A stretch of DNA of 64,000 nucleotides from Halodesulfovibrio aestuarii DSM 17919 = ATCC 29578 (GTDB lineage Bacteria; Desulfobacterota; Desulfovibrionia; Desulfovibrionales; Desulfovibrionaceae). Of this stretch, positions 14,346 to 34,099 are shown piece by piece (positions within the stretch are counted from its first letter, which is position 1; each line of letters begins with the position of its first letter). The notes under the pieces are model-generated. The model had not been told where the DNA came from. It searched no databases and was given only the letters and a program-made list of their open reading frames with translations. The DNA is taken from positions 124,001-188,000 of the forward strand of contig NZ_ARQF01000019.1 in NCBI RefSeq assembly GCF_000384815.1. The letters run 5' to 3'. The position numbers were made by a program, and so were the translations under genes.

Positions 14346-14361
14346 ACGACATGCATGTCGT
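14346..14361. promoter_or_regulatory. Operator: perfect palindrome CGACA-TGCA-TGTCG
   Basis: ACGACATGCATGTCGT is a perfect 16-base palindrome in the cut/permease divergent region. It has the core shared with the sites near 16304, 20248, 23023, 23093, 29214 and 34000. Confidence 0.7.
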
Positions 14362-14436
14362 TTAATGCACCACTTCTGTCTCGTTTCTTTTTATCGTTAT
14401 ATTTTAAGTTGTTACATTTTAAAAAAACTAAAATAA

Positions 14437-14448
14437 GACATTTCTGTC
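14437..14448. promoter_or_regulatory. Operator-like site GACA-TTTC-TGTC
   Basis: Palindromic core with the same four-base spacer; the outer C/G pair is lost. It lies 89 bases centre to centre from the perfect palindrome at 14346. Confidence 0.45.
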
Positions 14449-14739
14449 ACCACCCCGCTCAAATCCATCCTCACACACTCACCTAAATTCTTTTTTATAA
14501 TATTATTAGTATGTTCTGAAAGAAATTACAAAAAGAACTGCACTAACAGGCAATTACTGTGCCCAGTCTCACACACATTTTGGGGCGCTCATGTCGTTAT
14601 TACACGTATCGAAGTAATTATAATGTTATGAACCTGTGCCACACTCACCTCTCTTAGCGAAATCCGCTAAAAAACACTTTACTACAGGGTACAACAAAAG
14701 ACTTTTCTAATCACTCATGCCAATTGTCGCCTTCAATAA

Positions 14740-14754
14740 CCACAGACATGTCGC
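14740..14754. promoter_or_regulatory. Operator-like site CCACA-GACA-TGTCGC
   Basis: One mismatch to CGACA-N4-TGTCG. It lies about 190 bases upstream of the -24/-12 element at 14929, a usual distance for an enhancer site. Confidence 0.45.
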
Positions 14755-14928
14755 ACTCGATATTCACTAAAACCTTCTATCGCAGTCCCAGACAATTCCT
14801 TTGTCTAACCATCTGAACTTTCACTACCTGCACCATGGTGCCAGTGCCATATTCGCTTTTTTTTTCTGACAAACCATGCCTCATCTAAAAATGCACCATG
14901 AGAGATTTTTCACAATAGCAACGTTACG

Positions 14929-14944
14929 TGGCATGCTACATGCA
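14929..14944 (+). promoter_or_regulatory. Sigma54 promoter of the EamA permease operon
   Basis: TGGCATGCTACATGCA: GG and GC are exactly 10 bases apart, with near-consensus -24 and -12 elements. It lies 35 bases upstream of the ATG at 14979. Confidence 0.7.
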
Positions 14945-14978
14945 ACCTCCGGGCTTCAGACTAAAGGAGAATTAACAC

Positions 14979-15983
14979 ATGAAACTACAATCAAGTGTCA
15001 ACATTGAGTCGCTTGTAGCCCAGCGAAACATGCATTTTGCAAGAACAGGCATCCTTATCGCCTTATTTTCTGGAATGACTTGGGGACTTGATGGCGTTGT
15101 CCTTGGCAGCGCTCTCACCATGGCTCCATTTATTGATCCAGAGCTGTGGCTGCTCGCCCCATTAACTGCCGCTGCAATGCATGATGCAACATCTGCATTT
15201 GTAATCACTGCTATCAATATTTACTCAGGAAAGAGCAAAGAAATTTTCCGCAGCCTGCTCAGCAAGCCTGGCAAATTTATATGCCTTGGAGCGTTGATGG
15301 GAGGCCCAATTGGGATGGGAGGATACTTGCTTGCGCTCAAATTTGCAGGCCCGGCATTTGTGCTGCCAATCACGACTCTTTATCCAGCAATAGCCTCATT
15401 ACTTGCTGTTGTGGTGCTTAAAGAAAATATTTCTAAACTAGCTTGGGCGGGTTTAGGCATGTGTATTTTAGGCGCAATAGTTATTGGTTACACACCGCCA
15501 AGTGGCGAAACAACCAGCCAATTTTATTACGGAATCGCCTTTGCATTTCTTGCAACAATTGGATGGGGCTCAGAAGGAGTGTGTTCTACATATGGCATGG
15601 ATTTGCTTGACCCCTCTGTTGTACTAAACATACGCCAACTCGTTTCTGCCACCACCTACCTGCTCGTTATTCTTCCCATTGCAGGCGGCTACATGATTCT
15701 TACTGAAGCAGCATGGAATATTTCTGGTGACCTGATTCTTTTTGCAGGCGTTCTGGGCGCTGCTTCGTACCTGACATGGTACCGGGCAATGAACATGACT
15801 GGAGTAAGCCGGGCAATGGGGATTAACGTCACCTATGCGCTCTGGGGAATTATTTTTAGTTCCGTCTTTATGGACACAGAAATTACCGCAACCCTCGTCA
15901 TCGGAGCCATCATTATTACTGCGGGCATGATCATGGTTGTAGGCAATCCTAAAAATATGACAACCCTTCGCAATGTGAACTAG
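14979..15983 (+). CDS. EamA-family (DMT) permease
   Basis: 334 residues, about ten predicted membrane segments in two EamA repeats (first GILIALFSGMTWGLDGVVLG, second IAFAFLATIGWGSEGVCSTYG). Substrate is not readable from the sequence. It is transcribed divergently from the cut operon under a sigma54-type promoter with operator sites. Export of trimethylamine or uptake of choline or a related amine are reasonable guesses only. AAAGGAG precedes the ATG. Confidence 0.85.
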   Translation: MKLQSSVNIESLVAQRNMHFARTGILIALFSGMTWGLDGVVLGSALTMAPFIDPELWLLAPLTAAAMHDATSAFVITAINIYSGKSKEIFRSLLSKPGKFICLGALMGGPIGMGGYLLALKFAGPAFVLPITTLYPAIASLLAVVVLKENISKLAWAGLGMCILGAIVIGYTPPSGETTSQFYYGIAFAFLATIGWGSEGVCSTYGMDLLDPSVVLNIRQLVSATTYLLVILPIAGGYMILTEAAWNISGDLILFAGVLGAASYLTWYRAMNMTGVSRAMGINVTYALWGIIFSSVFMDTEITATLVIGAIIITAGMIMVVGNPKNMTTLRNVN

Positions 15984-15991
15984 AGGTCACC

Positions 15992-16267
15992 ATGACAACA
16001 CACAAATTACCGCTCAAAATGAGTATCGCTCAGATTTTCACAGATCAGGCTCCCCGCACTAAACACCATGTTTTTGTTGAACTAAAATCCAGCTATGGCA
16101 CTGAAAAACAATTCACGCGAGATACCATCGAAAATCATCTCATGTCCTTAAAAGCTGTCGGCATTCTTAAAGCTGAAGAAGCACGTCTCACTGCTCGTAA
16201 CGAACTAGTACAAGCATACGTCATCACCTCTTTCGGGCTTTCCAAACTGGCCAGTAAGCTTAACTAA
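15992..16267 (+). CDS. Small winged-helix-like protein, unknown function
   Basis: 91 residues, eight bases after the permease with its own GAGGT site, so in the same operon. The helix-helix pattern QFTRDTIENHLMSLKAVGIL followed by a hydrophobic strand pair (NELVQAYVITSFGLSKLASK) resembles a winged helix-turn-helix. I recognise no named family. It could be an accessory regulator of the amine genes. Confidence 0.65.
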   Translation: MTTHKLPLKMSIAQIFTDQAPRTKHHVFVELKSSYGTEKQFTRDTIENHLMSLKAVGILKAEEARLTARNELVQAYVITSFGLSKLASKLN

Positions 16268-16283
16268 ATTTTACAAAAAAAGA

Positions 16284-16303: not shown

Positions 16304-16317
16304 CGACACTAATGTCC
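16304..16317. promoter_or_regulatory. Operator CGACA-CTAA-TGTCC
   Basis: One mismatch to the palindrome. Paired with the site at 16284, and upstream of the sigma54 promoter of the BCCT gene. Confidence 0.6.
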
Positions 16318-16358: not shown

Positions 16359-16374
16359 GCGACACCAATGTCAC
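16359..16374. promoter_or_regulatory. Operator GCGACA-CCAA-TGTCAC
   Basis: One outer mismatch. It lies about 100 bases upstream of the -24/-12 element at 16468, a classical enhancer distance. Confidence 0.65.
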
Positions 16375-16467: not shown

Positions 16468-16484
16468 TGGCACAAATAATGCTT
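16468..16484 (+). promoter_or_regulatory. Sigma54 promoter of the first BCCT transporter
   Basis: TGGCACAAATAATGCTT: perfect TGGCAC, GG-N10-GC spacing, -12 element ATGCT. It leaves a leader of roughly 90 bases before the ATG at 16587. Confidence 0.75.
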
Positions 16485-16586: not shown

Positions 16587-18218
16587 ATGGAAGAAACAGG
16601 GAACACACCTAATAGTGATTTAAGACCTGATTATAAAATTCTTATACCGACATCACTTGTTATTTTAAGTGTTTGTATACCTTTTGTTTTATATCCAGAC
16701 GCAAGCCAAAGCATCTTGAAAACTATCTTCAACATGCTTTCAACTTACGCGGGCTCCGCTTTCTTGTGGATCAGTCTCTCATTCGTTGCTCTTTCGCTCT
16801 ACTTCATCTTTTCGAAATACGGTAACATCAAATTTGGTGAGCCTGATGAGAAGCCGGCGTTCTCAGATATCTCATGGATTGCCATGATGTTCTGCACCGG
16901 TGTTGCTGGTGCCGTAATGTACTGGTCTGTAGCAGAACCACTTTTTGACCTTGCTTTCCCGCCAATGCACGCTGCGCCTTTCTCCAAGGAAGCGTATGAA
17001 TGGGCGACTACATATGTACTTTTCCATTGGGGTCCACTCACATGGTCATGGTATGTAATCTGTGCAATTCCTATCTGCTACATGTACTACAAACGCAAAA
17101 AGCCAGTCCTTCGCATCAGTACAGCGTGCGAAGAAGCACTTGGCAAGCGTGTAAACGGCCCGCTCGGCTCTGCTATTGACTCTTTTTTCTGCATCGGACT
17201 GGTAGCATCAAACGCAGCAGTAATGGCGATTTCTGTTCCAATCATTGCATTCTCTCTATCCGAAACTTTTGGCATCGAGCCGTCTCTCGGCCTCCAGCTC
17301 ATCGTACTCGCCACAAGTACTGTTATCTTTAGCGCCAGTGTTGCAGCAGGGCTGGAAAAAGGTATTGCGAACCTTAGCTACGTAAACCTTATTATTGCGA
17401 TTGCACTCATCACCTTTGCATTTATTGTTGGTCCTACAACATACATTGTAGATAACTTTACAAACGCATTCGGTATGATGCTTAGCAACTTCTTCCACAT
17501 GTCCCTTTGGACTGATCCGCATACCAGCGGAACATTCCCTCAGGACTGGACAGTGTTTTACGCTCTTTGGATGGCGAGTTATGGTCCATTTATGGGTCTC
17601 TTTATTGCTCGTATCTCAAAAGGCAGAACCGTACGTCAGATCGTATCTATGGGTCTGATTTTCGGTATTCTTGGTGGTTGGCTCATCCATGGCGTCTTTG
17701 GTGGATACACTCTCCATCTCCAGCTCACCGGCGCTCTTGACGCTGCGGGAATTCTCAAAGAGTTCGGTCCTGCAATGGCTGTTGTAAAAGTATTAAGCAG
17801 CCTCCCTGGCGGCATAGCTATTCTGCTCGCATACTGCGTATTTTCAACCATTTTCCTTGCAACCTCTGTTGACTCTGCTGCATATGCGCTCTCCACAGCT
17901 TGCACCCGCAAACTTGGTATCGGTGATCATCCAACTGTTGGCCACCGTTTCTTCTGGGCCTTCCTGCAAGCCATCCTTCCTGCTTCCATGCTTTTCATTG
18001 GCGGCATAGCCCCAATGAAGACTTTTGCAAACGTTGCGGGCGCTCTGATGATCCTTGTTATTATCCCGATGGTCATCTCTCTCTTCAAAATGCTCAAAGA
18101 CGAAGACCCTGTTCGTCTTAAGTATCCTGAAATCGCAGACAAACTTGAGCGCTTAGACAAACTTGAAGCTCTTGCTGATCTTGAATCCCCTAAACAGGAC
18201 TACAAACAAGCAAGCTAA
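16587..18218 (+). CDS. BCCT-family quaternary-amine transporter
   Basis: 543 residues, about 12 membrane segments. Family motifs: GVAGAVMYWSVAEPLFDLAF and ASYGPFMGLFIARISKGRTV. In the substrate-binding helix the aromatic box reads W-M-A-S-Y where BetP has W-W-I-S-W, so one tryptophan is methionine and one tyrosine; the Y is shared with CaiT-like members (from memory). It should import choline, betaine or carnitine-type compounds. AAGGAG precedes the ATG. Three operators and a sigma54 promoter lie upstream, linking it to choline degradation. About 50% similar by eye to the product of 32183-33748. Confidence 0.93.
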   Translation: MEETGNTPNSDLRPDYKILIPTSLVILSVCIPFVLYPDASQSILKTIFNMLSTYAGSAFLWISLSFVALSLYFIFSKYGNIKFGEPDEKPAFSDISWIAMMFCTGVAGAVMYWSVAEPLFDLAFPPMHAAPFSKEAYEWATTYVLFHWGPLTWSWYVICAIPICYMYYKRKKPVLRISTACEEALGKRVNGPLGSAIDSFFCIGLVASNAAVMAISVPIIAFSLSETFGIEPSLGLQLIVLATSTVIFSASVAAGLEKGIANLSYVNLIIAIALITFAFIVGPTTYIVDNFTNAFGMMLSNFFHMSLWTDPHTSGTFPQDWTVFYALWMASYGPFMGLFIARISKGRTVRQIVSMGLIFGILGGWLIHGVFGGYTLHLQLTGALDAAGILKEFGPAMAVVKVLSSLPGGIAILLAYCVFSTIFLATSVDSAAYALSTACTRKLGIGDHPTVGHRFFWAFLQAILPASMLFIGGIAPMKTFANVAGALMILVIIPMVISLFKMLKDEDPVRLKYPEIADKLERLDKLEALADLESPKQDYKQAS

Positions 18219-18964: not shown

Positions 18965-19957
18965 CTATGGAGAAACTGGATTAGAAGAAGGTTGTGCCCC
19001 TGCCGATGTAGCGTTGTGTGTTCCTTGAGGTAGCCTTTTCCGTGAGTTTCCGGATATCATCGATAAAAGGATTCCCCCAAAAATAATTACCCCACCTTGA
19101 AGCTGTGTTGCTGAAACAGGCTCACCTAGAAAGGCCCAAGCGAGCAAACCGCTTATCAAGGGTATTATATAGTAAAACTGGGTAGTGCGAGTCGCCCCAA
19201 TAATTCCTACAGCCAAGTTCCAAAAGAAGTAACACAAAATAGATGCACCGATAGCTAAGTATGTCAGCGTCAACCACATATCATTCGTTACTTCTACAAC
19301 CTCAACTCCAGAATGAACATCCCAGATGAATATTGGAATCAGGAACACAAAGCCAAGTACAAAAGTTACGCCAAGCAAGGCACGTTGACTTATTTTTCCG
19401 CTCACAGCTTTTATTGTAGTATTGTATGCAGCTGACATCAGACAGGTGCCTATAACAAACAGGTCTCCTTGTCCGAACTGAATACTGGCCAACTGTGACC
19501 AATTGCCGTCTGTTACCAGATAAGCAACACCACAAATACTGACGATACACCCCAGATACATAGCAGGAGAGCTTTTTTCGCCAATAAAAATCCGAGCCAC
19601 CACAGCAGTCATTAAAGGTGACAGCGTTGAAATAAGTGCAATGTTTAGTGCAGGGGTTGTCTGTCCGGCAATGAATAAAAACAAATCAAATAAAGAAATA
19701 CCTAATAAAGCCAAGAAACAGACTGTTACAAAATACTTTTTTAACACCCTACGTTCTCTCCACATCGGGCCTAGAGAAAACGGTAAAATGAACAATGTGG
19801 CTAACGCCCAGCGGTACATATTAAGCATCGCAGGGGGCATAACATCACCCATTGCTCTAGCTGCAACTATATTTCCTGAAAAATTAATTATAGCCAGCAA
19901 TATATAGCAGTAACCAGCTGTTTTGCTGAACAATATATTTTGAAAACGGAGAGGCAT
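18965..19957 (-). CDS. EamA-family (DMT) permease
   Basis: 330 residues with about ten membrane segments in two EamA repeats (YCYILLAIINFSGNIVAARA, then GASILCYFFWNLAVGIIGAT). It belongs to a different EamA branch from the product of 14979-15983. Substrate unknown. It is divergent from the chemoreceptor, sharing an intergenic region with one operator at 20248. A proline- and serine-rich tail ends the protein. Confidence 0.85.
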   Translation of the reverse strand: MPLRFQNILFSKTAGYCYILLAIINFSGNIVAARAMGDVMPPAMLNMYRWALATLFILPFSLGPMWRERRVLKKYFVTVCFLALLGISLFDLFLFIAGQTTPALNIALISTLSPLMTAVVARIFIGEKSSPAMYLGCIVSICGVAYLVTDGNWSQLASIQFGQGDLFVIGTCLMSAAYNTTIKAVSGKISQRALLGVTFVLGFVFLIPIFIWDVHSGVEVVEVTNDMWLTLTYLAIGASILCYFFWNLAVGIIGATRTTQFYYIIPLISGLLAWAFLGEPVSATQLQGGVIIFGGILLSMISGNSRKRLPQGTHNATSAGAQPSSNPVSP

Positions 19958-20072: not shown

Positions 20073-20247
20073 TGTCAGAACAAGTAAGTATCTTCTCCAC
20101 ATTCCGTAGTGGAGTGCTAACCAGACAGCTCACTTTTCCAATTCTCTCCGTTTGCTCTAAAAGCACAGACCATGCCACTCGTGACGCTATGCATAACAGT
20201 TCGTTTTTATTATTTTTTTTGCAAAAACATTTCTTGGGCAAAAAAAA

Positions 20248-20267
20248 ATGCGACACACTTGTCGCAT
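20248..20267. promoter_or_regulatory. Operator: 20-base palindrome ATGCGACA-CACT-TGTCGCAT
   Basis: The longest perfect copy of the operator. It lies about 210 bases upstream of the chemoreceptor's -24/-12 element. As RNA it would be a good hairpin, but the flanks do not suggest a terminator. Confidence 0.7.
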
Positions 20268-20465: not shown

Positions 20466-20481
20466 TGGCGTAGTTTTTGCA
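20466..20481 (+). promoter_or_regulatory. Sigma54 promoter of the chemoreceptor
   Basis: TGGCGTAGTTTTTGCA: GG-N10-GC spacing and a perfect TTGCA -12 element. It shows that translation must start downstream, at 20525. Confidence 0.7.
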
Positions 20482-20524: not shown

Positions 20525-22663
20525 ATGCACTTCACCTCACTTAAATCAAAACTTGTTGTTTTTATCTCGAGCATCTTCATTTTGTTCTTTTGCGTACTCA
20601 TCATTGGAACAGCCTACTACTTGCGGACAACAGCTATCAACGACGCTGTTTCTTATACGGAAAAAACTACCAAAGAAATTTCACTCCGTATTCAACGCGA
20701 ATTTGAAGCCGGCTTTTCTGTAGCTAGAACTCTAGCTACTACGCTTGAAGGGTTGCGTGCACAAAACATGATGCCCTCAAGAGAGCAAGCAACTGAAATG
20801 CTCCACGCATCTGCTGTAAAAAACCCTAAATTCTTCGGAATATGGACGGTCTGGGAACCTCAAGGTTTTGGCGATGATGACCACCAGTACACGTCAAACG
20901 CCGAACATTCAGGCCCTGATGGCAGGTTTGTTCCATACTGGAACAAAACAAAAGGCTATCTATCCCTGTACCCCTGCAAATCCTATCGCGATGATGAACC
21001 ATCAGGTTGGTACACATTCTCACGCGATAGCAAGCAAGAGTTTGCAACTGTAATTACAGAATTTAAACCAAATGGAAAATCAATCAAAGTTACTTCGCTT
21101 ACTGTTCCAGTAATTGTGGATGGAAAAGCAGTCGGAGTAATCGGAGCAGACCTTTCTGCCGACTTCCTGAACAATATTGCAAATTCAATTAAAGCGTTTG
21201 ATGGTCAGGCAACTCTGGCGATTATTGCACACGACGGAAGCGTGCAGGCTCTAACTCATGATACAAAAGCACTGAACACTCAGTACGAAAAATATGTACC
21301 GAATGCTGCGGCGCTTCTTACCCAAGCTGCTTCAGGCAAAACAGTAACATCCATCAAGGATGACTACTTGCGTGTAATTGTTCCGATTTCTCTGGGCAAA
21401 GCAGAAAAAAACTGGGCAATTGCCCTTTCTGTGCCGAAAGCAGTCGTACTTGCAGAAGCAAACTCTATGACCAAACTGCTTGCAGGAGCCTCAATAGCTA
21501 CACTTATTCTAGCCCTGCTGTTTATTTACTACTTAGCAGGCTTCATTACGAAGCCAATAATTCACACTTCTAATATTGTTGAAGAATTAGCGTCCGGTAA
21601 ACTGAATAAAAGATGCGTCATTCGATCACATGACGAAATCGCTACCATGCAAAATGCTGTGAACAACCTTGGCGAAACACTTGAGCAAAACGAACAACGC
21701 AGCAAAGAAAGCATGGAGGAAATCGAAGCTCATTCCACAGAGGCAACTAAAGCTATGGAAGCAGCACGTCTTGCTCAGGAAGAAGCCGAACAGGCCCACA
21801 GCAAAGGTATGCTGGCTGCAGCCAAACAACTAGAAACTGTCGTCAGCACACTGGCCGGTTTGTCAACGGAACTGAATGAGCAGATCACCTCTACAGTTAA
21901 TGACATTACACTACAGGAAGCACGAAACAGTGAAACTGCCACAGCAATGGAAGAAATGAACTGCACAATTCTCGAAGTAGCACAAAATGCTAATCATGCA
22001 GCAACAAGTACAGACGAAGTCTGCACTAAAGCTGAAAAAGGTATTCGGGGGATTACGCAGTCTGTTGAGACTATACAGAATGTTTCTTCACACACGGAAA
22101 AGCTTAAATGTGAAATGAACGCATTGGGAGAGCAAGCCACCTCCATAAGCGACATTATCAATGTTATCAGCGACATAGCAGATCAAACAAACCTTCTCGC
22201 CTTAAACGCAGCGATTGAAGCAGCACGTGCTGGAGATGCAGGACGCGGGTTTGCTGTTGTTGCAGACGAAGTGCGTAAACTTGCTGAAAACACCATGAAT
22301 GCGACCAATCAGGTCAGCACAGCGATTGAGAACATTCAAGCAAGTGCCAACGCAAACATTGAAGCAATGAACTCCACCTTCGATTCAGTGGGTCAGGCAA
22401 CTGAATACGTAACTGAATCTGGAAAAACATTTACCCAGATTATGGAGCACATCACCAGTGTAACAGAACAAGTTCGGGCAATTGCTACAGCGACAACTCA
22501 ACAATCTGCGGCGAGTGAAGAAATAAACCAGGCTGTCGGAGAAATTAGCCAACTTGCTTCAAACACGTCTATCCACATGCATGAAGCACAAAACGCGACA
22601 AACAACCTTACGACCCTGACAAACCAGTTAAATCAGATGATCACCACACTACAGAATAGTTAA
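20525..22663 (+). CDS. Methyl-accepting chemotaxis protein with dCache-like sensor
   Basis: 712 residues. First membrane helix about residues 10-32; a large periplasmic sensor with the dCache pattern ([14 protein letters not shown]... [15 protein letters not shown]); second membrane helix about 325-345; a HAMP domain; a coiled coil; and the signalling hairpin tip [18 protein letters not shown]. No CheR-binding pentapeptide at the C-terminus. The start is ATG 20525 with AAGGGA upstream; an upstream in-frame ATG at 20477 overlaps the promoter. Some dCache receptors sense quaternary amines (McpX-type), and the operator/promoter context suggests an amine ligand here (inference). Confidence 0.93.
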
Positions 22664-23022: not shown

Positions 23023-23036
23023 CGACAAGTGTGTCA
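23023..23036. promoter_or_regulatory. Operator CGACA-AGTG-TGTCA
   Basis: One mismatch. Its centre lies 70 bases from the next site and about 165 bases upstream of the -24/-12 element. Confidence 0.6.
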
Positions 23037-23092
23037 CAAAGGCTCTAACAAGCTGTTTATCATGAAAAAGTATATATCAACAAAAAACAACA

Positions 23093-23106
23093 CGACACCC
23101 ATGTCG
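23093..23106. promoter_or_regulatory. Operator CGACA-CCCA-TGTCG
   Basis: Perfect core palindrome about 90 bases upstream of the sigma54 promoter at 23195, the best-placed enhancer of this operon. Confidence 0.7.
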
Positions 23107-23194
23107 CACCCAACACTTAGCCAAACACATCCCCCCTCCCAAAAAAACCTTTTTTACTATCATATTACATTGTATTTACTATGATTAGACACTT

Positions 23195-23210
23195 TGGCAC
23201 GAACAATGCT
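23195..23210 (+). promoter_or_regulatory. Sigma54 promoter of the OsmC-lpd-gcvH operon
   Basis: TGGCACGAACAATGCT matches TGGCACG-N4-TTGCW at all but one position, with GG-N10-GC spacing. It is the best -24/-12 element in the window. Confidence 0.8.
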
Positions 23211-25200: not shown

Positions 25201-25590
25201 ATGAGTGAACTTACTTTTCCAAATGATCTTCTTTACCATACCGAACATACTTGGGTACGCATTGCTGATGACAACACTGCAATAGTTGGCATTACCGACT
25301 TTGCACAGGAACAGCTTGGCGAAGTTGCTTTTGTAGATCTTCCATCCGCAGGCTCCAGCTTCTCCGCAGGAGACGAATTCGGAACTGTAGAATCCATCAA
25401 AGCTGTAAGCAGCCTCCACATGCCTATCACCGGCACTGTTACTGAAGTAAACGAAGGCCTCGAAGACGATCCTTCTCAGGTTAACACATCCCCTTACGGT
25501 GACGGCTGGATGCTCCGTATTACTGTTGACGCTGATGCAGACAAAAGCCATCTGCTCAACGATCAGGATTACGCAGCACAGCTCAAATAG
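25201..25590 (+). CDS. gcvH: Glycine cleavage system H-like lipoyl carrier protein
   Basis: 129 residues, full length. The lipoylated lysine is Lys67 in VESIKAVSS, with the family motif GEVAFVDLP before it. AAGGATA precedes the ATG. It could serve the glycine cleavage system (with GcvP/GcvT elsewhere) or carry reducing power to the OsmC protein of the same operon. Confidence 0.95.
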   Translation: MSELTFPNDLLYHTEHTWVRIADDNTAIVGITDFAQEQLGEVAFVDLPSAGSSFSAGDEFGTVESIKAVSSLHMPITGTVTEVNEGLEDDPSQVNTSPYGDGWMLRITVDADADKSHLLNDQDYAAQLK

Positions 25591-25688: not shown

Positions 25689-25736
25689 AAGAGTTACGCA
25701 CTTCCCAACAACATTTAACCAATTTTCATGGGACCA

Positions 25737-26381
25737 ATGCAGATTATCGACCTTGGACGAATTCGATACAAAGACGCCGAAGATCTTCAGATGGAGCGCC
25801 TCGACGCTGTCGTAAACGGGGCAGAGCAAACGCTCTACCTGCTGGAACACGATCCGGTGATTACTTTCGGACGAAACGGCGGCCGTGAAAATCTCCATGT
25901 CAGCGACGAATTCCTCGCCTTACAGGGCATTGATCTTGCGCACTCCACACGCGGTGGCAACATTACCTGTCACTTCCCCGGCCAGCTTGTGGCCTATCCA
26001 ATCTTTAGGGTAGCCAAACGACCAGGCGGAATGCGTCAGCTCTTTTATGATCTTGAAGAAGTGGTCATCCGTACAATTAGCGACTTTGGCATCGCTGCGA
26101 CAAGACAGGAAGGCCGTCCCGGAGTCTGGGTGGAAAACAGAAAACTCTGTTCCATCGGTATCGGGATGAAAAAATGGACAAGTTACCATGGCCTTGCGCT
26201 CAACGTGCAGCGCGATGTCGAGCTGTTCCGCATGATAACCCTCTGTGGATTAACTGACGCAGAACCTTCATCCATTGCCCAAGAACTTGGTCGCGAAAAA
26301 CTTCCCATGCAAGAGGTCAAAGATGTGCTCGCAAGACACTTCCAAAACATATTTACGCATTCCCCCGTGGCTCAGAGTTAA
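25737..26381 (+). CDS. lipB: Octanoyl-ACP:protein transferase
   Basis: 214 residues from ATG 25737 (ATG 25728 also possible; neither has a strong ribosome site). It transfers octanoyl from ACP to the H-protein. Motifs: [12 protein letters not shown], a slight variant of the usual RGGQ-T-H-PGQ; the catalytic Lys region [11 protein letters not shown]; and the catalytic Cys in MITLCGL, where most members have PCG. Its end overlaps the lipA start. Confidence 0.9.
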
Positions 26382-27710: not shown

Positions 27711-29189
27711 TTACATGGAATACTTTTTCAGCTTTCGCTGCATAGTGCGCATATTGAGACCTAAATACTTTGCGGTTTGCCCTTTTCTCCAGTGATTTTT
27801 TTCAAGAGCTTTGAGCATAAGGTGACGCTCAACAGCTTCCAGCACTTCTGAAAGCGTAGAGTAGTCTTCTGCGGCTTCCAATGCTTCTTCAATATCCATC
27901 GAACCTTTTGGAGCCTGAATACCAAAGTCACTCAAAACCACTTCACCGAACGTCAGGTAACGCTCCAAAACGTTCTGCAGTTCACGGACATTCCCCGGCC
28001 AGTCATGCGCATCAAACGCTGCATAAAGTTTAGCAGGAATCGTAGATACATCTGCATTTTTACCTAGATAGCGTGATAAAAACTCAGCTACCAGCAGCGG
28101 AAGGTCTTCCAGACGATCACGGAGCGGAGGAACACGGATGGGCAGTACATGCAGACGGAAAAAGAAGTCAGAGCGCATTGTTCCATCTTTAACCATTTGC
28201 GAAAGGTCTCGGTTAGTCGCTGCAACAAGTCTAAACTGTGAATGCTGAGACTCACTTCCACCTACAGGTGTATAAAATTTACTTTCCAGTGCACGAAGCA
28301 GTTTTACCTGCAAAGCAAGGTCAATTTCCCCCACCTCGTCAAGAAAAAGTGTCCCGCCATCTGCTGCGGCAAGGTACCCCTTGCGGTTGGCAACCGCACC
28401 GGAGAATGCGCCCTTTTTATACCCGAAAAATTCACTTTCCATCAAGTTAGGAGGAATAGCACCACAGTTAACTGGAACATATGGTCCTTTCACGCCGCTT
28501 TGCTCATGAATAGTTTGAGCGACAAGGTCTTTGCCTGTACCTGTCTCTCCAAGTATAATTACATTAGCGTTGCTTTTTGAAGCTTTTAAAATAAGTTTGA
28601 AAACATCGCGCATGCCGTCGCTTTTGCCGATGATGTTACCAAATCTAAAACGGTCATCCATGGAACCTTGAAGGCGGTGGTTCTCCTGCAGCAATTCAAA
28701 TTCACGCATCTTTTGTGCGCTGATATCGATCATAATGCCTTCAAGATATACGGGAGTTCCATCATTATCGTAAACACATTCGCCCTGATCCCAAATCCAC
28801 TTACAACTTTCATCCTCAAGAAGAACACGGTAGAGCATTTTGTAGGGACGATTGCTGATTATGGCATCTTCCTGTTCCTTACGCATTGAGGCAAGGTCGT
28901 CAGGATGTGCCATAATTTCCATCACATTCGTACGCTTGCCAATAAGAGCTTCCGGTGTAACCCCTAAAAGGTCAATACTGCCCCGACTAACGAACTCCAA
29001 CATCGATTGAAAATTCTCATCAATGGTACATCGATAGGCCATCCCCGGCAGATTGTTGAACAAACGAGTCAGTTGCCGCTGGCTTGCCAGCAGGTCCTGC
29101 TTGGACGTGCTGAGGATTATCGACTCCTCATGCAGCCCTGCACCATCCGTAGGCTGTTCTACATTTATCTGGTCGTTCATAGTTTCCAT
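27711..29189 (-). CDS. Sigma54-dependent transcriptional activator (PAS, AAA+, Fis HTH)
   Basis: 492 residues. The N-terminal half has a PAS domain (FNNLPGMAYRCTIDE... DISAQKMREFELL). The AAA+ domain has Walker A GETGTGKD, the sigma54-contacting loop GAFSGA (usual form GAFTGA, a conservative T-to-S change) and Walker B TLFLDEVGE. A Fis-type HTH ends the protein (GQTAKYLGLNMRTMQRKL). I start at ATG 29189 after GGGAGAG. A perfect 20-base operator lies 22 bases upstream of this ATG, so it probably controls itself. It is the only activator of this class in the window and the likely reader of the CGACA-N4-TGTCG sites. Confidence 0.92.
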   Translation of the reverse strand: METMNDQINVEQPTDGAGLHEESIILSTSKQDLLASQRQLTRLFNNLPGMAYRCTIDENFQSMLEFVSRGSIDLLGVTPEALIGKRTNVMEIMAHPDDLASMRKEQEDAIISNRPYKMLYRVLLEDESCKWIWDQGECVYDNDGTPVYLEGIMIDISAQKMREFELLQENHRLQGSMDDRFRFGNIIGKSDGMRDVFKLILKASKSNANVIILGETGTGKDLVAQTIHEQSGVKGPYVPVNCGAIPPNLMESEFFGYKKGAFSGAVANRKGYLAAADGGTLFLDEVGEIDLALQVKLLRALESKFYTPVGGSESQHSQFRLVAATNRDLSQMVKDGTMRSDFFFRLHVLPIRVPPLRDRLEDLPLLVAEFLSRYLGKNADVSTIPAKLYAAFDAHDWPGNVRELQNVLERYLTFGEVVLSDFGIQAPKGSMDIEEALEAAEDYSTLSEVLEAVERHLMLKALEKNHWRKGQTAKYLGLNMRTMQRKLKKYSM

Positions 29190-29498
29190 ATTGTCTCTCC
29201 CAAACAACATGTGCGACAAAGGTGTCGCACCCTCTCAAATGCGGCATCTATGTCCTCTCGAAAGAAAGAGCAAGTGTTTTTTCACCTCCATCTTCACCTC
29301 TAAAATAATACTCAGGGCAGTTGTTGGTGTGTTCTCTTGCCTATCTTTCCAATATGTCATTTCTTTTTATGCAAGGACTGAAATTGAGTCACATTTACAG
29401 GGCTAATGGAGCAAAAGGAAAAAAGGGAACACACCCCATGGACCGGACTGGAATCCGGCCTATGAGGTGCGTTTGTGAGTATAACTATCGAGTGCTTC
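29190..29498 (-). other. Gene-free stretch upstream of the activator
   Basis: 309 bases. Contains the operator at 29211-29230 near the activator start. No -24/-12 element with correct spacing was found, so the activator probably has a sigma70-type promoter. Beyond 29240 I see nothing else. Confidence 0.5.
29211..29230. promoter_or_regulatory. Operator: 20-base palindrome GTGCGACA-AAGG-TGTCGCAC
   Basis: Perfect arms, four-base spacer. It is so close to the activator's start codon that occupancy would block transcription or initiation, pointing to autorepression. Confidence 0.7.
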
Positions 29499-30080
29499 TT
29501 ATGCGCAGTCGTGCTTATCCCAAGGTTCGCGGTTATCGCGCTGCAGCGCAACTTCCATACGAGCAATGGCATCTTTCAGTTTGCCAATTTCCTTGAGTTT
29601 CATGTTAGCATCTTTAAGCGCCTGGTAAAGAATGCCACCTGTGCAATCTGCTGGTACGAGAAGATCTGCTACGTAGCAGAAGGTAGCAACAACATCAGCT
29701 GCGGTTGCACTACGTTCAACAGTGCCTGCTTTTTTATCAATGCCAAGACCGGAAAGGTAGAGGCCGTTGTCGGTAGCAATAGCGATAAGGGTACGACGGT
29801 CAGCAGCATCGGAAATCTGAGCAACAGCAGCTTCCAAAACTTCATTGCTTGCATTGCCGAGTTCTACAACTGCAAATGCACAATCTTCTTCAAAAGCTTT
29901 AGCAACACCGTCAGCAGCAACAGTGATTGCGCCTTCGATTTTAGCTGCTTCTGTAACCATGTTTTCGTTGTTGAAAGAAGCTACAGTGCAAGCTTTTTTC
30001 ATGAACTTTTCTAATGCTGCGCCGCTACCATTTACGTCTGCTTCGCCACAAGCGATCAGAACTACTTTTTTTTCAGCCAT
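29499..30080 (-). CDS. Small protein related to the C-terminus of alkaline-phosphatase-superfamily enzymes
   Basis: 193 residues, AGGAG before the ATG. The segment GLGIDKKAGTVERS...DVVATFCYVADLLVPADCTG aligns by eye with the end of the neighbouring hydrolase (GPGVKQGFVYDRP...DVVPTFCHATGNPVPADTEG). The metal-binding and nucleophile motifs of a full enzyme are absent. An N-terminal alanine-rich Rossmann-like part precedes, and a basic helical tail follows. Function unknown; an inhibitor or partner subunit of the hydrolase is possible. Third gene of the BCCT-hydrolase operon. Confidence 0.7.
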   Translation of the reverse strand: MAEKKVVLIACGEADVNGSGAALEKFMKKACTVASFNNENMVTEAAKIEGAITVAADGVAKAFEEDCAFAVVELGNASNEVLEAAVAQISDAADRRTLIAIATDNGLYLSGLGIDKKAGTVERSATAADVVATFCYVADLLVPADCTGGILYQALKDANMKLKEIGKLKDAIARMEVALQRDNREPWDKHDCA

Positions 30081-30184: not shown

Positions 30185-32074
30185 CTAGTTATCGTGCTTT
30201 TCAAAAATCTGGTACATTACAGCACCTTCAGTATCAGCAGGAACAGGGTTGCCTGTTGCGTGACAGAAAGTAGGAACTACATCTACCAGCCAGCGCGGAC
30301 GATCGTATACAAAACCTTGTTTAACGCCTGGGCCGCGCCATACCATAACGTTTTTCAGAGAACCACATCCGGACTCACCAGTAGGGAAACCGTAGCCGTG
30401 TTCTGCCATGTATTCAGGTTTAAGTACGTAAACAACGTCACCAGCCTGCTCGCCACCCATGCCGAAAACTTTAGCGTCTTCTTTAGGGATTGCACACATA
30501 ACTGGACGTTCACCTGTTTCTGGGTGTTTGTAGTCGTAGAGAGCATCGATAATCTGGTTACGAACTTTTTCGTAATCTTCGTCCTCTACAATACCACCCG
30601 GGTACTTTGACTTCAGGTTTACATATACAAACATGTAACGCTGAGGAACAGCCAAAGATTTTTCGGGGATAAGGTCGTAGTTAAAGCCTTCGGCTTCTTC
30701 CCATACAGAACCTGCATCGTCTTTGCCACGAGCTTCATAAGCACACAAACCAGCCTGCTTCAGAGCTTCTGCAGTGTTAAGGATAGGTCCGATAGGAGTT
30801 GCACCGTGGTCAGAGATAAGACAAGTAAGCGCATCAGCAGGCATGTGCTCCATTACTGCACCAAGGAATTTGTCCTCGATCTGGTAGATAGCACGTTCCA
30901 TATCGTATGCTTTCTTTTTCTCTTCTTCGGAACCGTATTCCATCTTCTCGAGGTAACCATGATAGAACCAGTCGATAAGGTGGGTGTGCATGTAAACGAG
31001 ATCCCAATCAGCATGGTCTTTCATGAGTGTAGTTAACACTTCGGTAAGCCACTCTGAGTGGAACTGAGCCAATTCAATCACTGTTTCGTCATCAATAATG
31101 CCGTTTACAAGGCCAACAAAGCCCATGTCGTTTGCAAGAATAGTTTTGCTGAAATCAACATTCTTCAACGCATCGTCAGGAGCGCAGTAACCGTGAGTTC
31201 CAGTGATACCGGACATGTAAAGTTTAAAGTCTTCAGCATCGTCAGAAAGTTCCATCAACTTACAACGGAAGTAACCTTTCTCAATGCGGCCATCAGACTC
31301 GATAGGGAACTCAGATTCAATAACGTCAGACCATTCGCGAACTTTGATGGTAAAGAATGCCTTAGAAAAATCTTTTTCTGGGCACAGAGCGAAAACATCG
31401 TAGCCGTCGTCTTCAGATTCCCAAGTCAGACCGTACCAGGTTTGAGGAGTCATTTTTTCCATGGCGTGAGGGAATTCCATAGGAATTACCATATCGAGAG
31501 GCTCAAGATCTTCGATTTCTTCAGGGAGGTTTTTCCAGCCTTCAGCTTCTTCGAAACGTGCCTGTACACCAATTGGGTAGTAGTCGGTTGCTACACAAGA
31601 TTCTGAACACAAGCTTTCTCTGTGCTCGTAGCCTTCAATCTGCCAACGGGATTCCGCAGCAGATAAGCCTTCACCCTGTACCATTACGCCATTTTTGAGT
31701 TTAGAAGGCCAAGAAGTAGGGTAGTTTACTACCAGACATTTTTTGCCTGCTTTATCCCATGCATCCCAAATGGTTTCGGCTTTAAGCATTTTGGAACCGA
31801 AGGCCTGCACGCATTTGGAAAAGTGCAAGGACTCGCCTTCGTTGTAGTAGTAATAGTCCTCAACACCGTGAGTACGAGGGTAAGCACCGGTACAGATAGA
31901 GGCCCAGGAAGGAGGGGTAACTGTAGGCATGTTGTAGCCTTCAGTCATGTATGACCCTTCTTCTTTGAATTTTTTGAAGTTAGGCAAAGCGCCTTCTTCC
32001 ATCAGTGCTTCAAGGCGCTTAGGAATAGCGCAGTCGAAACCGAGAAGTGCAATTCTTTTGGCTTCAGAAGTCAT
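30185..32074 (-). CDS. Cytoplasmic type I phosphodiesterase / nucleotide pyrophosphatase-like hydrolase
   Basis: 629 residues, no signal peptide. Alkaline-phosphatase-superfamily features: metal-binding Asp14 in LGFDCA, nucleophile Thr53 in TVTPPSWASICTG, HTHLIDWFYHGY and LISDHGATPIG metal sites. A threonine nucleophile, not the Cys/Ser-x-Pro-x-Arg motif, argues against a sulfatase. Its partner genes are a BCCT transporter (upstream) and a small C-terminal-like protein. I infer that it releases choline or a related amine from an imported ester such as a phosphodiester. AAAGGAA precedes the ATG. Confidence 0.88.
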   Translation of the reverse strand: MTSEAKRIALLGFDCAIPKRLEALMEEGALPNFKKFKEEGSYMTEGYNMPTVTPPSWASICTGAYPRTHGVEDYYYYNEGESLHFSKCVQAFGSKMLKAETIWDAWDKAGKKCLVVNYPTSWPSKLKNGVMVQGEGLSAAESRWQIEGYEHRESLCSESCVATDYYPIGVQARFEEAEGWKNLPEEIEDLEPLDMVIPMEFPHAMEKMTPQTWYGLTWESEDDGYDVFALCPEKDFSKAFFTIKVREWSDVIESEFPIESDGRIEKGYFRCKLMELSDDAEDFKLYMSGITGTHGYCAPDDALKNVDFSKTILANDMGFVGLVNGIIDDETVIELAQFHSEWLTEVLTTLMKDHADWDLVYMHTHLIDWFYHGYLEKMEYGSEEEKKKAYDMERAIYQIEDKFLGAVMEHMPADALTCLISDHGATPIGPILNTAEALKQAGLCAYEARGKDDAGSVWEEAEGFNYDLIPEKSLAVPQRYMFVYVNLKSKYPGGIVEDEDYEKVRNQIIDALYDYKHPETGERPVMCAIPKEDAKVFGMGGEQAGDVVYVLKPEYMAEHGYGFPTGESGCGSLKNVMVWRGPGVKQGFVYDRPRWLVDVVPTFCHATGNPVPADTEGAVMYQIFEKHDN

Positions 32075-32182
32075 TTTACTTTTCCTTTAATTTCAATGTG
32101 TTATAGCTTTAGTTGTGCGCAACAAAAGAGCCACCAGGAAACATCATGCTCCCGAATGGTGGAGCTTTAGTTACAAACGATA

Positions 32183-33748
32183 CTAAATAGTTTTGTTAGG
32201 ATCGGGGGTGCAATATTTAACCAAGGCATCATCCTGCTTGGTCATTTTGAACCAAGAAGCTATTCCGAATGCAATAGGCACGAGCATAAGTGCTCCTGCG
32301 AAATTCGCGAAGACCTTAGCCGGTCCAAGACCGCCTAGCGTAATCGCCGCCAGAGCAAGCCCTGCCTGAATGGCTGCCCAATAAAATCGGTGTCCGCGAG
32401 TCGGTTCGGTTCCCGGGACTAGTTTGGTCGTTGCGGAACAGGAAATAATGTAGGCACAGGAATCCACAGATGTTGCAAGAAAAATTGTTGAGAACACACA
32501 ATAGCCAATCAAAACAAATGTTCCAGCAGGTAATGTACTAAGGACTGAAACCAGTGCCGCTGAACCACCGGAGGCTTTCAACATGTCAACTGCATCGACA
32601 ACACCGTTAAGCTGAGCGTGTAGGGTGTACCCACCAAACACAGCATGGATCATATAGGAACCGGCTATGCCCCCAGCCAAGCCCAAAGCAATCACCTGAC
32701 GAACGGTGCGCCCTCGAGAAATACGTGCAATAAACAGCCCCATAAACGGACCGTAGGAAGCCATCCACAAGGCATAAAAGATAGTCCAATCCTGCGGAAA
32801 ACTGCCTTTGGTATACGGATCAGTCCAAAGAATCATTCCCCAAAAATTAGACAGCATCTGCCCCATCGAGTTGGTGAAGTTATCCACAATAAATACTGTA
32901 GGGCCAGTAACAAAGCAGAAAAGAACCAACCCCAGCGCGATGACAACGTTGGCATCAGATAAAACCTTAATGCCTTTTTTGAGCCCCAGAGAGACAGAAG
33001 CAGTAAAAATAACTGCTGAGATGCCAAGGATAACCAGTTCCAGAGTAAAGCTAGGCTTAATACCGAGAACAGCACTCAAAGCATGATTAACAATCGGAAC
33101 AGACACTCCCATAACCGTAGCATTAGAGAACATCAGACCGATAATAAAAATAATTTCGATACCTCTACCGATACCACGATTGGCCTTTTCACCAAGTATC
33201 GGCTCAGCAGTGGAACTAATGCGCAGGACAGGCTTTTTACGCTTGTAGTACAAGTAACAGATAGGCAATGCACTTACCATGTACCACGGCCAGGTGACAG
33301 GCCCCCAATGCAGAAGCACATAGGCCATGGACCACTCGAAAGCCTCGCGCGATAGCGGCTCCGCGAACATAGGCGGGTACGCCAGATTGAACAGAGGTTC
33401 TACAATGGACCAAAACATAACCGCACCGGCAACGCCGGAACAGAACATCATAGAAATCCAGGAATAGTTGTTAAACTCGGGCTTTTCGTCTTTTTCGCCA
33501 AATTTAATTTCTCCGTAACGGGAAAACATAAAAAATACGGAGAGAAACATCATCACTAAGGTAGCCCACAAAAACAACGTACCTGTTGTATTAGTAAATA
33601 CACTATATACAGACTTCAGAAGCTGTTCGAACGGTTCGGTAAACAAGATTGAACAAGCGATAATCCCAATAAGAATTATCGTCGCAGGAATCAAAATCTT
33701 GTTATCAGGGCGAAGGTTTGCACCCTGATTTTTGTCTTCTGTAACCAT
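32183..33748 (-). CDS. BCCT-family quaternary-amine transporter, first gene of the hydrolase operon
   Basis: 521 residues from ATG 33748 (GGAGGGG upstream; a longer frame to 33841 has no ribosome site). About 12 membrane segments; motifs GVAGAVMFWSIVEPLFNLAY and ASYGPFMGLFIARISRGRTV. Same W-M-A-S-Y aromatic box as the other BCCT. It begins EDKNQGANLRPDNKILIP, like its paralogue, so the two arose by duplication. Expected substrate is a choline-type amine or its ester. Under a sigma54 promoter with three upstream operators. Confidence 0.93.
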   Translation of the reverse strand: MVTEDKNQGANLRPDNKILIPATIILIGIIACSILFTEPFEQLLKSVYSVFTNTTGTLFLWATLVMMFLSVFFMFSRYGEIKFGEKDEKPEFNNYSWISMMFCSGVAGAVMFWSIVEPLFNLAYPPMFAEPLSREAFEWSMAYVLLHWGPVTWPWYMVSALPICYLYYKRKKPVLRISSTAEPILGEKANRGIGRGIEIIFIIGLMFSNATVMGVSVPIVNHALSAVLGIKPSFTLELVILGISAVIFTASVSLGLKKGIKVLSDANVVIALGLVLFCFVTGPTVFIVDNFTNSMGQMLSNFWGMILWTDPYTKGSFPQDWTIFYALWMASYGPFMGLFIARISRGRTVRQVIALGLAGGIAGSYMIHAVFGGYTLHAQLNGVVDAVDMLKASGGSAALVSVLSTLPAGTFVLIGYCVFSTIFLATSVDSCAYIISCSATTKLVPGTEPTRGHRFYWAAIQAGLALAAITLGGLGPAKVFANFAGALMLVPIAFGIASWFKMTKQDDALVKYCTPDPNKTI

Positions 33749-33904
33749 TTCCCCTCCAGGAAAATTCACTTGCTCCAGAAAATGCCATTCCGCTGTATAT
33801 CTTGCTCTGAAATATCTGTTGATATATCTTGTTGCTGACAACTAATAACAAACTAATTTCATACGAAATTAAAACTCACATAAAGTTGTTGTTGCAGGTC
33901 TTAA

Positions 33905-33920
33905 AGCAATATGCGGGCCA
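33905..33920 (-). promoter_or_regulatory. Sigma54 promoter of the BCCT-hydrolase operon
   Basis: Minus-strand TGGCCCGCATATTGCT: GG-N10-GC spacing, perfect TTGCT -12 element. The leader is about 145 bases. Confidence 0.75.
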
Positions 33921-33999
33921 AACCGAATAAACTGCCGGAATAGCCCATACACTTGTGAAAAGATGCGCAACATGCCTCTATAACAAAAACACGACCTGG

Positions 34000-34013
34000 C
34001 GACATTTTTGTCG
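34000..34013. promoter_or_regulatory. Operator CGACA-TTTT-TGTCG
   Basis: Perfect palindrome 80-95 bases upstream of the -24/-12 element, the position expected for an enhancer site. Confidence 0.7.
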
Positions 34014-34065
34014 TTACGTAGTTCCGAATAAAAAATCCCCTGCTTTATCAGCAGTAAACATGCAG

Positions 34066-34079
34066 CGACATTTTAGACG
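34066..34079. promoter_or_regulatory. Operator-like half-site pair CGACA-TTTT-AGACG
   Basis: The left half is perfect, the right half matches at three of five positions. It sits exactly 20 bases from the next site, as at 16284/16304. Confidence 0.4.
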
Positions 34080-34085
34080 CTTCTG

Positions 34086-34099
34086 CGTAATTTTTGTCG
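34086..34099. promoter_or_regulatory. Operator-like half-site pair CGTAA-TTTT-TGTCG
   Basis: The right half is perfect, the left half matches at three of five positions. With 34066 it forms a composite with perfect outer halves. Confidence 0.4.

Follow-up and report, generated by a model that had tools for sequence, protein, structure and literature searches.

The window, i.e., the whole stretch of 64,000 nucleotides from Halodesulfovibrio aestuarii analysed here, raises the question of whether a palindrome that recurs between its genes, CGACA-N4-TGTCG, marks a common regulon and, if so, which protein acts through it and on what pathway. Judging by comparative sequence evidence, we consider it highly probable that these palindromes are the upstream activating sequences of a single sigma54 activator (the EBP coded at 27711-29189), which would serve six promoters of a module tied to the choline TMA-lyase CutC.

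The palindromic operator and its promoters in the window

Exact copies of the palindrome start at 14347, 20251, 23093, 29214 and 34000 (n = 5); copies with one mismatch start at 14740, 16304, 16360 and 23023, and those with two at 14436, 16284, 22925, 34066 and 34086. The palindrome is thus confirmed as an observation: all eight perfect or one-mismatch copies of the original prediction were recovered, with its coordinates off by 0-3, as were its weaker copies (14437, 14740, 16284, 22925, 34066 and 34086), although that at 14740, with just one mismatch, is better than had been stated. That all sites are intergenic also holds with the start codons adopted here. The principal sites are:

14346..14361: exact operator RCGACA-N4-TGTCGY before EamA1; its distance to the first cut gene is 742 bp
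14740..14753: operator, one mismatch
16304..16317: operator, one mismatch
16360..16373: operator, one mismatch
20250..20265: exact operator between the divergent EamA2 and MCP genes
23023..23036: operator, one mismatch; the neighbouring exact operator is 70 bp away
23092..23107: exact operator
29213..29228: exact operator shortly before the EBP gene
33999..34014: exact operator

Matches with up to two mismatches number 36 in the window against 20.6 ± 4.6 in 100 shuffles, none of which reached 36. Among palindromes of the form X5-N4-X5', CGACA ranks first of 1024 (5 copies vs. a mean of 0.11), and it is found at gap 4 only when gaps of 0-20 are scanned. Across the source genome (3.55 Mb) there are nine exact copies, five of them within this window; of the other four, three fall inside ORFs from a mechanical listing and the fourth lies between a convergent pair. 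Genome-wide, the bare motif shows no excess over a reversed control, either as exact copies (9 vs. 12) or with one mismatch (116 vs. 203). Since it is in excess only in some relatives and not here, motif counts alone are weak proof. The extended operator RCGACA-N4-TGTCGY, a form displayed by all five exact window copies, occurs five times in the genome, always in the window; it is this extended form, its position and its neighbours that carry evidential weight, rather than bare counts.

Six -24/-12 promoters, all with GG-N10-GC in a TGGCAC/TTGC-like context, are the only window matches outside ORFs scoring at least 16 (16.3-17.1) on a consensus weighted by hand, with a maximum of 17.9. The scan is unspecific at lower scores, with 138 window matches of at least 13.5 vs. 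66-99 in 20 block shuffles. Five of the six had been predicted (14929, 16468, 20466, 23195 and 33905) and prove real by score, whereas the minus-strand promoter at 20162 had been overlooked. The operator-promoter spacing measures 80-215 bp, in keeping with the 80-210 claimed. Operator-promoter composites number five in the source genome, of which four are in the window (reversed control, 3).

14929..14944, plus: sigma54 promoter TGGCATGCTACATGCA for EamA1-orf91, score 16.6 of 17.9
16468..16483, plus: sigma54 promoter TGGCACAAATAATGCT for BCCT1, 16.6; composite also recovered by the genome-wide scan
20162..20177, minus: sigma54 promoter TGGCATGGTCTGTGCT for EamA2, 16.6
20466..20481, plus: sigma54 promoter TGGCGTAGTTTTTGCA for MCP, 16.3
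23195..23210, plus: sigma54 promoter TGGCACGAACAATGCT for OsmC-Lpd-GcvH-LipB-LipA, 17.1; composite also recovered by the genome-wide scan
33905..33920, minus: sigma54 promoter TGGCCCGCATATTGCT for BCCT2-PDE-P193, 16.9

The genes behind these promoters, with their presence in the 29 compared stretches where counted, are:

14979..15983, plus: EamA1, DMT-type permease (PF00892; 16/29)
15992..16267, plus: orf91, no family (19/29)
16587..18218, plus: BCCT1 transporter (PF02028)
18965..19957, minus: EamA2, DMT-type permease (PF00892; 16/29)
20525..22663, plus: MCP chemoreceptor (PF00015; 6/29); ATG 20525, longest ORF from TTG 20477
23261..23686, plus: OsmC family protein (PF02566; 26/29)
23731..25155, plus: dihydrolipoyl dehydrogenase, Lpd (TIGR01350, over cut-off)
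25201..25590, plus: GcvH-type lipoyl carrier (TIGR00527, over cut-off)
25728..26381, plus: presumably LipB (octanoyltransferase), named from its sequence; conserved in L112
26275..27219, plus: presumably LipA (lipoyl synthase), likewise named from its sequence; true start probably inside (5/29)
29499..30080, minus: P193, no family; residues 104-161 related to the PDE C-terminus
30185..32074, minus: PDE, alkaline-phosphatase-superfamily enzyme, NPP/phosphonoacetate hydrolase-like (PF01663)
32183..33841, minus: BCCT2 transporter (PF02028); probable ATG 33748

The predicted targets (a permease, two BCCT transporters, the chemoreceptor and the lipoyl operon) all have promoters, but EamA2 had been missed and the promoter candidate of the cut operon, also named as a probable target, is weak. 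The BCCT family comprises quaternary-amine transporters. Both window members score under the cut-offs of the NCBIfam BetT, betaine and carnitine models, and the regulon BCCTs have an altered cage region; because the Trp pair of DddT is missing from them, a quaternary amine substrate is not assured. The PDE reaches 34.6 bits against the phosphonoacetate hydrolase (PhnA) model, under its curated cut-off of 407.55; with weak PhnA and TIGR03340 scores, a role in phosphonate use is not supported. An AlphaFold model of P193 from the single sequence has a mean pLDDT of 47.3. Genes resembling DsrH/E/F of sulfur relays occur in 9-10 of the 29 compared stretches, and some clusters have a TauABC/SsuABC-like ABC transporter, among them three stretches that are without a BCCT (L207, L209 and L210).

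The proposed activator and its operators across relatives

The regulator acting through the palindromes is most likely a protein coded within the cluster:

27711..29189, minus: EBP, PAS-AAA+(GAFSGA)-Fis HTH sigma54 activator (PF08447, PF00158, PF02954)

Its AAA+ sigma54-interaction domain (PF00158) scores 207.9 bits (cut-off 20.2) and its C-terminal Fis-type HTH (PF02954) 47.6 bits (cut-off 22), and the translation has the GAFTGA loop as a GAFSGA variant, which is listed as compatible with activation (PMC4641369). The recognition helix RTxQR[KR] is present in all 34 cluster EBPs, which came from a search of 38 stretches, four of them without a match. Its Q is found in none of 29 other activators, a negative set that includes L016-L035 and leaves out L036-L095; 28 of these 29 are without an exact site. 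Among the relatives of the EBP, exact sites lie within about 1.5 kb in 6 of the 7 best matches and in none of 9 weaker ones, and the sites accompany the EBP into another family; identity is at most 50% among the matches listed, with records near the window left out. The operator at 29214 precedes the EBP ATG at 29189 by about 25 bp (alternative starts, ATG 29210 and TTG 29219, would bring it closer or inside), and 28 of 34 EBP genes have a site near their start (absent in 6), which points to probable autoregulation.

We then used the PDE as a conserved cluster gene, which gave 64 matches in 348 genomes, and scanned 20 analyst-chosen neighbourhoods. Exact operators are present in 19 of the 20, the exception (L209) having one-mismatch sites only. 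Here, again, the CGACA palindrome ranks first of 1024, with 56 copies against a mean of 0.71 and 13 for the runner-up; all 56 are at gap 4, and none of the other gaps between 0 and 20 has more than five. An outward sigma54-like promoter lies within 250 bp of 74 of 110 exact sites vs. 1854 of 20,000 random positions (9%), the control being random rather than intergenic positions. At the other 36 sites no promoter scoring at least 15.5 was found within that distance; some of these adjoin the EBP gene and a few fall within reading frames. The flanking R/Y bases, for which there was no selection, are conserved in 215 of 220 flanks at cluster sites vs. 7 of 26 at off-cluster copies. Tandem operators, 66-73 or 86-90 bp apart, are frequent, and helical phasing is weak when only distinct operator-promoter distances (43) are considered (p about 0.009).

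Full operators are commoner in genomes with the PDE than in those without it in 11 of the 13 genera having both kinds (e.g., 5.2 vs. 0.2 in g1 and 3.0 vs. 1.2 in g48), a comparison begun with three analyst-picked genera and extended to all 13. The two remaining genera show no such excess (none in either kind in g41; 2.0 vs. 2.0 in g37). The full operator is absent from 5 of the 64 PDE genomes, and several copies are found in some genomes without the PDE (e.g., six in G058 and five in G301). All these tallies are to be read with kinship in mind, related genomes not being independent and near-identical ones inflating counts; ORFs in relatives were called mechanically and some genome and distance tallies compiled by hand. 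The same genes carry sites in other genera and in another family, and these comparisons strongly support one coherent operator/sigma54 regulon. Because a common site and a matching activator lie beside a choline-linked cluster in many relatives, joint activation is probable.

We infer the following course of events. The PAS domain of the EBP would sense a signal, possibly choline or something related to it, or else a matching redox state. The EBP bound at the operators, which in relatives lie mostly 60-150 bp from the promoter, perhaps with preferred helical faces, would loop onto sigma54 polymerase waiting at the -24/-12 elements, and would so activate EamA1-orf91, BCCT1, EamA2, the chemoreceptor, OsmC-Lpd-GcvH-LipB-LipA and BCCT2-PDE-P193, while the operator beside its own start codon would probably mediate autoregulation. 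The tie to the TMA-lyase would take different forms, with cutC in an activated operon in some genomes and a MerR-like promoter before cut in others.

The choline link and competing readings

The window contains a cut operon, with CutC as a possible further target:

7891..8841, minus: CutD activase (TIGR04395, over cut-off)
8868..11417, minus: CutC choline TMA-lyase (TIGR04394, 1645 bits, over cut-off)
12997..13605, minus: the first two genes of the cut operon, for microcompartment shell proteins (similar to shell families, but below the equivalog cut-offs)

Its nearest exact operator is 742 bp away and its only promoter candidate, at 13835 on the minus strand, is weak (15.1 of 17.9); a MerR-like promoter was not found before it. 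Among the 348 genomes, CutC is present in 66, including 45 of the 64 with the PDE; 19 PDE genomes are without CutC and 21 CutC genomes without the PDE. CutC and the PDE lie within 25 kb in 19 of the 45 (counted by hand). Apparent operons place cut genes behind an operator and promoter in G104, G143, G152, G153, G182, G198, G206 and G222, and the order OsmC-Lpd-GcvH-CutC-CutD occurs in relatives. Of the cut operons, 33 were examined: a MerR-like promoter precedes 16, the sigma54 operator arrangement is seen at eight, and nine show neither by the analyst's criteria. We accordingly reject cut as a core target in general, given how often a MerR-like promoter stands there instead. The choline link is supported by co-occurrence and co-location with CutC. 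The predicted network around choline breakdown is partly borne out: its coherence has strong support, but the reading is too narrow in view of the CutC-less PDE genomes and of the many cut operons that are not targets, and choline as substrate or ligand is putative.

The strongest competitor keeps the same operator/sigma54 regulon and assigns it to a different substrate of the BCCT type, be it a sulfonium, a sulfonate or a further quaternary amine, with CutC an optional neighbour; we give this reading serious weight, at somewhat below an even chance. It draws on the 19 CutC-less PDE genomes, one of which (G037) has a cluster of BCCT, PDE, P193, EamA, OsmC and EBP genes, on the DsrH/E/F-like genes and TauABC/SsuABC-like transporter of some clusters, on the MerR-like promoter at 16 of 33 cut operons and on the altered BCCT cage, and is opposed by how strongly CutC co-occurs and co-locates with the cluster, at times within one apparent operon, and by the quaternary-amine character of the BCCT family.

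A broader proposal, which we advance tentatively and with a little less confidence still, is that the EBP governs an undescribed anaerobic module of sulfate reducers: a quaternary-amine-like compound would be imported and handled by the PDE and P193 and by a thiol relay of the lipoyl/OsmC or the DsrEFH kind; CutC would be an optional branch whose control switched in evolution between the sigma54 EBP and a MerR-type regulator. In such a module the PDE would be cytosolic and P193 its partial paralogue.

It is improbable that some other regulator, such as a repressor from another family, occupies the palindrome while the EBP uses other sites. Some sites do adjoin the EBP gene without a sigma54 promoter, in a repressor-like arrangement, but sigma54 promoters follow the sites at enhancer distances, and the sites co-vary with the EBP recognition helix and go with the EBP into another family; moreover, MerR, in 8 of 29 stretches, is the only other regulator identified among the shared gene groups, whose annotation is incomplete. 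A chance cluster or repeat family without regulatory meaning, for which the genome-wide counts below the reversed control might speak, has a negligible probability and is in our view already refuted by conservation, since these genes have sites in other genera and in a further family, with conserved flanks; the intergenic concentration of five of nine copies in 20 kb also speaks against it.

Relation to known systems and significance

The favoured reading, a sigma54 regulon under one EBP, has precedents. In D. vulgaris Hildenborough, where the sigma54 regulons of 37 EBPs were studied, one-component PAS EBPs likewise lie beside their targets, with -24/-12 promoters and small regulons, and three of five motif groups pair a TGT with an ACA half site at a distance of 9, 11 or 12 bp (PMC4641369). 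None of the regulons in Table 1 of that paper, compared by annotation, is annotated with choline, BCCT, OsmC/lipoyl or PDE functions, and 'choline', 'betaine', 'BCCT' and 'lipo' are absent from its main text. The cut genes beside the regulon resemble known cut microcompartment clusters in having CutC, CutD and shell genes; the cluster of D. alaskensis serves growth on choline and sulfate, and a predicted TRAP-like choline transporter has been named (PMC4215793, PMC6620236). The accessible parts of these accounts name no sigma54 regulator, OsmC-lipoyl operon or PDE, and, unlike those clusters, the present regulon also exists without CutC. Sigma54 control of a methylated-amine catabolic locus is known from the SoxR-Sigma54 sarcosine system of Bacillus thuringiensis, which differs in its sarcosine oxidase and its host (PMC4941409, as far as accessible). 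The literature searched, which covered few subscription papers and main texts rather than supplements, yielded no description of the regulon.

The anaerobic conversion of choline to trimethylamine matters for both the gut and marine sediments, and no sigma54 regulator of this conversion in the present group is mentioned in the consulted parts of the cut-cluster accounts. With operator, activator and target list defined, such regulation becomes directly testable. The conserved partners PDE, P193, OsmC-Lpd-GcvH and DsrEFH point to steps around CutC beyond those in the consulted parts of the cited sources.

The operator in the window and in related genomes

The palindromes and -24/-12 promoters on which the original prediction of a shared regulon rested are all present in the window (G000:C19:124001-188000, in a genome of 3.55 Mb and 21 contigs), with coordinates differing by 0-3. 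The gene content suggests that the organism is a Desulfovibrio-type sulfate reducer. When up to two mismatches are allowed, the operator CGACA-N4-TGTCG has 36 matches in the window against 20.6 expected, a number reached in 0 of 100 shuffles. With 5 exact copies it is the commonest of the 1024 palindromes built this way (mean 0.11), and the CGACA palindrome occurs there at gap 4 alone among gaps 0-20. Genome-wide, the bare motif shows no excess (9 exact copies, 5 of them in the window, vs 12 for the reversed control; 116 one-mismatch copies vs 203 for the control), so the case rests on where the sites lie and what surrounds them. Three of the 4 exact copies outside the window lie within mechanically listed ORFs and one between convergent ORFs, and all 5 genomic copies of the full operator, RCGACA-N4-TGTCGY, are in the window.

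As a probe for the cluster in 348 genomes of the class we used the PDE, an alkaline-phosphatase-superfamily protein encoded at 30185-32074 (E<=1e-150). It is present in 64 genomes, with at least 59% identity in 63 of them. The scan of related genomes, set beforehand as a check, came out in favor of the regulon: 19 of 20 neighborhoods fetched out of the 64 PDE genomes hold one to five exact sites each, 56 in total, against a palindrome mean of 0.71 and a runner-up with 13. The flanks outside the search pattern are R before and Y after in 215/220 cases at sites in cluster stretches and in 7/26 at 13 off-cluster copies. At least one full operator is found in 59/64 PDE genomes, and in 11 of the 13 genera with both PDE and PDE-less genomes the mean number is higher with PDE: g1 (5.2 vs 0.2), g48 (3.0 vs 1.2), g8 (4.5 vs 0.45) and g5 (3.8 vs 1.4), each at p<0.005, and g50 (1.5 vs 0.7, p 0.05). 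The other genera are represented by only one or two PDE genomes each. The mean is equal (2.0) in g37 and zero in both groups in g41, and some PDE-less genomes have several copies. One genome, G003, exceeds its relatives with 17 exact sites and 9 full operators.

Gene families by number of stretches, from ORF clustering of 29 stretches in 27 genomes, window included
PDE, 27
P193 (PDE neighbor), 27
OsmC, 26
EBP (sigma54 activator), 25
BCCT transporter, 22
orf91 (no family), 19
EamA1 and EamA2 (DMT-type permeases), 16 each
YitT, 15
Lpd, 15
GcvH, 14
DsrH/F/E, 10/10/9
MerR, 8
Shell proteins, 7
Chemoreceptor, 6

The literature searched, which included passages of PMC6620236, PMC4215793, PMC6325248 and PMC8667426, gave no account of such a regulon. 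The 36 D. vulgaris regulons of PMC4641369, in the part covered, differ in lacking its functions.

The proposed activator and the sigma54 promoters

The proposed regulator is encoded within the cluster:
27711-29189, minus strand: EBP, with PAS_3, sigma54-activation (GAFSGA loop) and Fis-HTH domains

A search of 59 relatives gave 16 EBP matches at E<=1e-100. Of the best seven, which include the window's own EBP (52-100% identity), six carry between one and three exact sites in the short locus; the remaining one (G001) has a one-mismatch site at the corresponding place and five exact sites within ~14 kb. The 9 weaker matches (41-45% identity) have no exact site in the short locus. All 34 cluster EBPs, drawn from 38 cluster stretches of which four gave no match, share the recognition-helix motif RTxQR[KR]. 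The Q of this motif is absent from all 29 other EBPs (20 named loci among the matches listed plus the 9 weaker matches), which have F/Y (27), S (one) or R (one) there, and for 28 of them the fetched locus lacks an exact site. Since the cluster EBPs share the helix, while the others lack the Q and mostly the sites, this comparison ties the operator to the EBP as its putative regulator, with binding predicted from sequence. In G007 (L260, G007:C3:194000-202800), the EBP found ahead of the cut operon is a different one, with 41% identity and another recognition helix.

Autoregulation of the EBP is probable. Near the approximate start codons of 28/34 EBP genes there is a site with at most one mismatch: 20 lie upstream by up to ~100 bp, 4 fall slightly within the assumed start and 4 are at 109-250 bp. 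Because a weak sigma54-like element (15.5) faces the EBP gene in these last four (G068, L136, L138, L140), the site might there mediate activation rather than repression.

Our -24/-12 scan, built on a consensus with hand-set weights (maximum 17.9), is unspecific, as the window gave 138 matches at >=13.5 against 66-99 in 20 block shuffles. The five promoters originally named score 16.3-17.1; a sixth, overlooked then, lies at 20162 on the minus strand (16.6), between the 20251 operator and EamA2. The remaining matches at >=16 (3672, 8335, 23763, 52570, 54380) are all within ORFs. The composite of GACA-N4-TGTC and TGGY-N8-TGC occurs genome-wide three times at a gap of 55-85, two of them in the window (reversed control 1), and twice at 84-114, both in the window (reversed control 2). 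L249 (G000:C21:1045112) is the sole operator–sigma54 composite found outside the window in this genome.

Across 40 stretches from 38 genomes, 74 of 110 exact sites have an outward promoter (>=15.5) within 250 bp, against 9.3% of random positions. The distances are mainly 62-67, 74-80, 86-89, 104-109 and 134-151; with a Rayleigh R of 0.54 at 10.5 bp for all 74, and p about 0.009 when each of the 43 different distances is counted once, helical phasing is suggested only. Directly past the OsmC promoter is a second palindrome, GGACAAGCTTGTCC (window 23224-23237; L112 9911-9924; L136 about 12465-12480), identical in G001 and with a similar counterpart in G005, possibly a leader hairpin or repressor site.

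Two arrangements upstream of cut operons

CutC, the choline TMA-lyase (TIGR04394), is above cut-off in 66/348 genomes. CutC and PDE occur together in 45 genomes, PDE alone in 19, CutC alone in 21 and neither in 263 (Fisher p 2e-25, relatedness ignored), and the two lie <=25 kb apart in 19 of the 45 by hand count. In G182, G143, G153, G198 and G152, an exact operator and sigma54 promoter precede OsmC-Lpd-GcvH-CutC-CutD (CutD being the activase), and their fetched stretches (L232, L233, L234, L235 and L237) gave no shell-gene match; the choline lyase may here work without a microcompartment. G206 has shell genes, AldDH, CutC and CutD after OsmC-Lpd-GcvH, and G222 and G104 have operator and promoter immediately ahead of a shell-AldDH-CutC-CutD operon.

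A different element dominates one set of 15 regions upstream of cut, comprising the window's and 14 fetched ones: 13 (L252-L260, L262-L265; not G000 or G104) have TTGAC[CT]TT[CG]CC, then an inverted GGGG-rich half with a long spacer (TTGACCTTCCCC...GGGG...TA), which we take to be as expected for a MerR-family promoter. Seven of these have an EamA-MerR gene pair upstream in opposite orientation, and the element also adjoins shell genes in G284, G310 and G180. Thus, 16 of 33 cut operons examined have the MerR-like element, 8 have the sigma54 arrangement, in none of which that element was found, and 9 show neither under the criteria used (G000, G012, G116, G123, G127, G132, G144, G165, G259). Among the last, G144 has the order OsmC-GcvH-CutC-CutD and a promoter, its sole exact site being within the EBP frame; in G012, BCCT and CutC follow one another downstream of operator and promoter; and in G132 and G259 the MerR-like element lies solely on the side of a divergent EamA gene. 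In the window, 742 bp separate the 14347 operator from the first shell gene, and the top promoter candidate in that interval (13835, minus) scores 15.1, for which reason we hold direct operator–sigma54 control of cut in this genome to be an evenly balanced prospect.

Predicted functions of the module

From their sequences, the module's parts would provide import by BCCT and sensing by the chemoreceptor, together with DMT permeases, PDE, P193 and a thiol/lipoyl set (OsmC, Lpd, GcvH, LipA/B, or DsrEFH). Neither BCCT reaches the cut-off of any NCBIfam model that it matched. The nearest solved relative of BCCT2 is DddT, which has FYWAWWIVYTPF at the substrate-cage region, whereas the regulon BCCTs read FYALWMASYGPF-like (18/29) or FYALFWAG-like (10/29). 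A TauABC/SsuABC-like ABC transporter lies within the cluster in L207, L209, L210 and L239, and no BCCT was found in the first three; in other genomes an outer-membrane-protein-like ORF lies past the PDE operator. The PDE, as we read its sequence, has no obvious signal peptide. P193 (29499-30080) has no family match, though so widespread; from the similarity of its residues 104-161 to the C-terminus of PDE (hhalign probability 97.6), we suggest that it may be a partial phosphatase-superfamily paralogue. For OsmC-Lpd-GcvH, we conjecture a protective or redox role for the oxygen-sensitive CutC.
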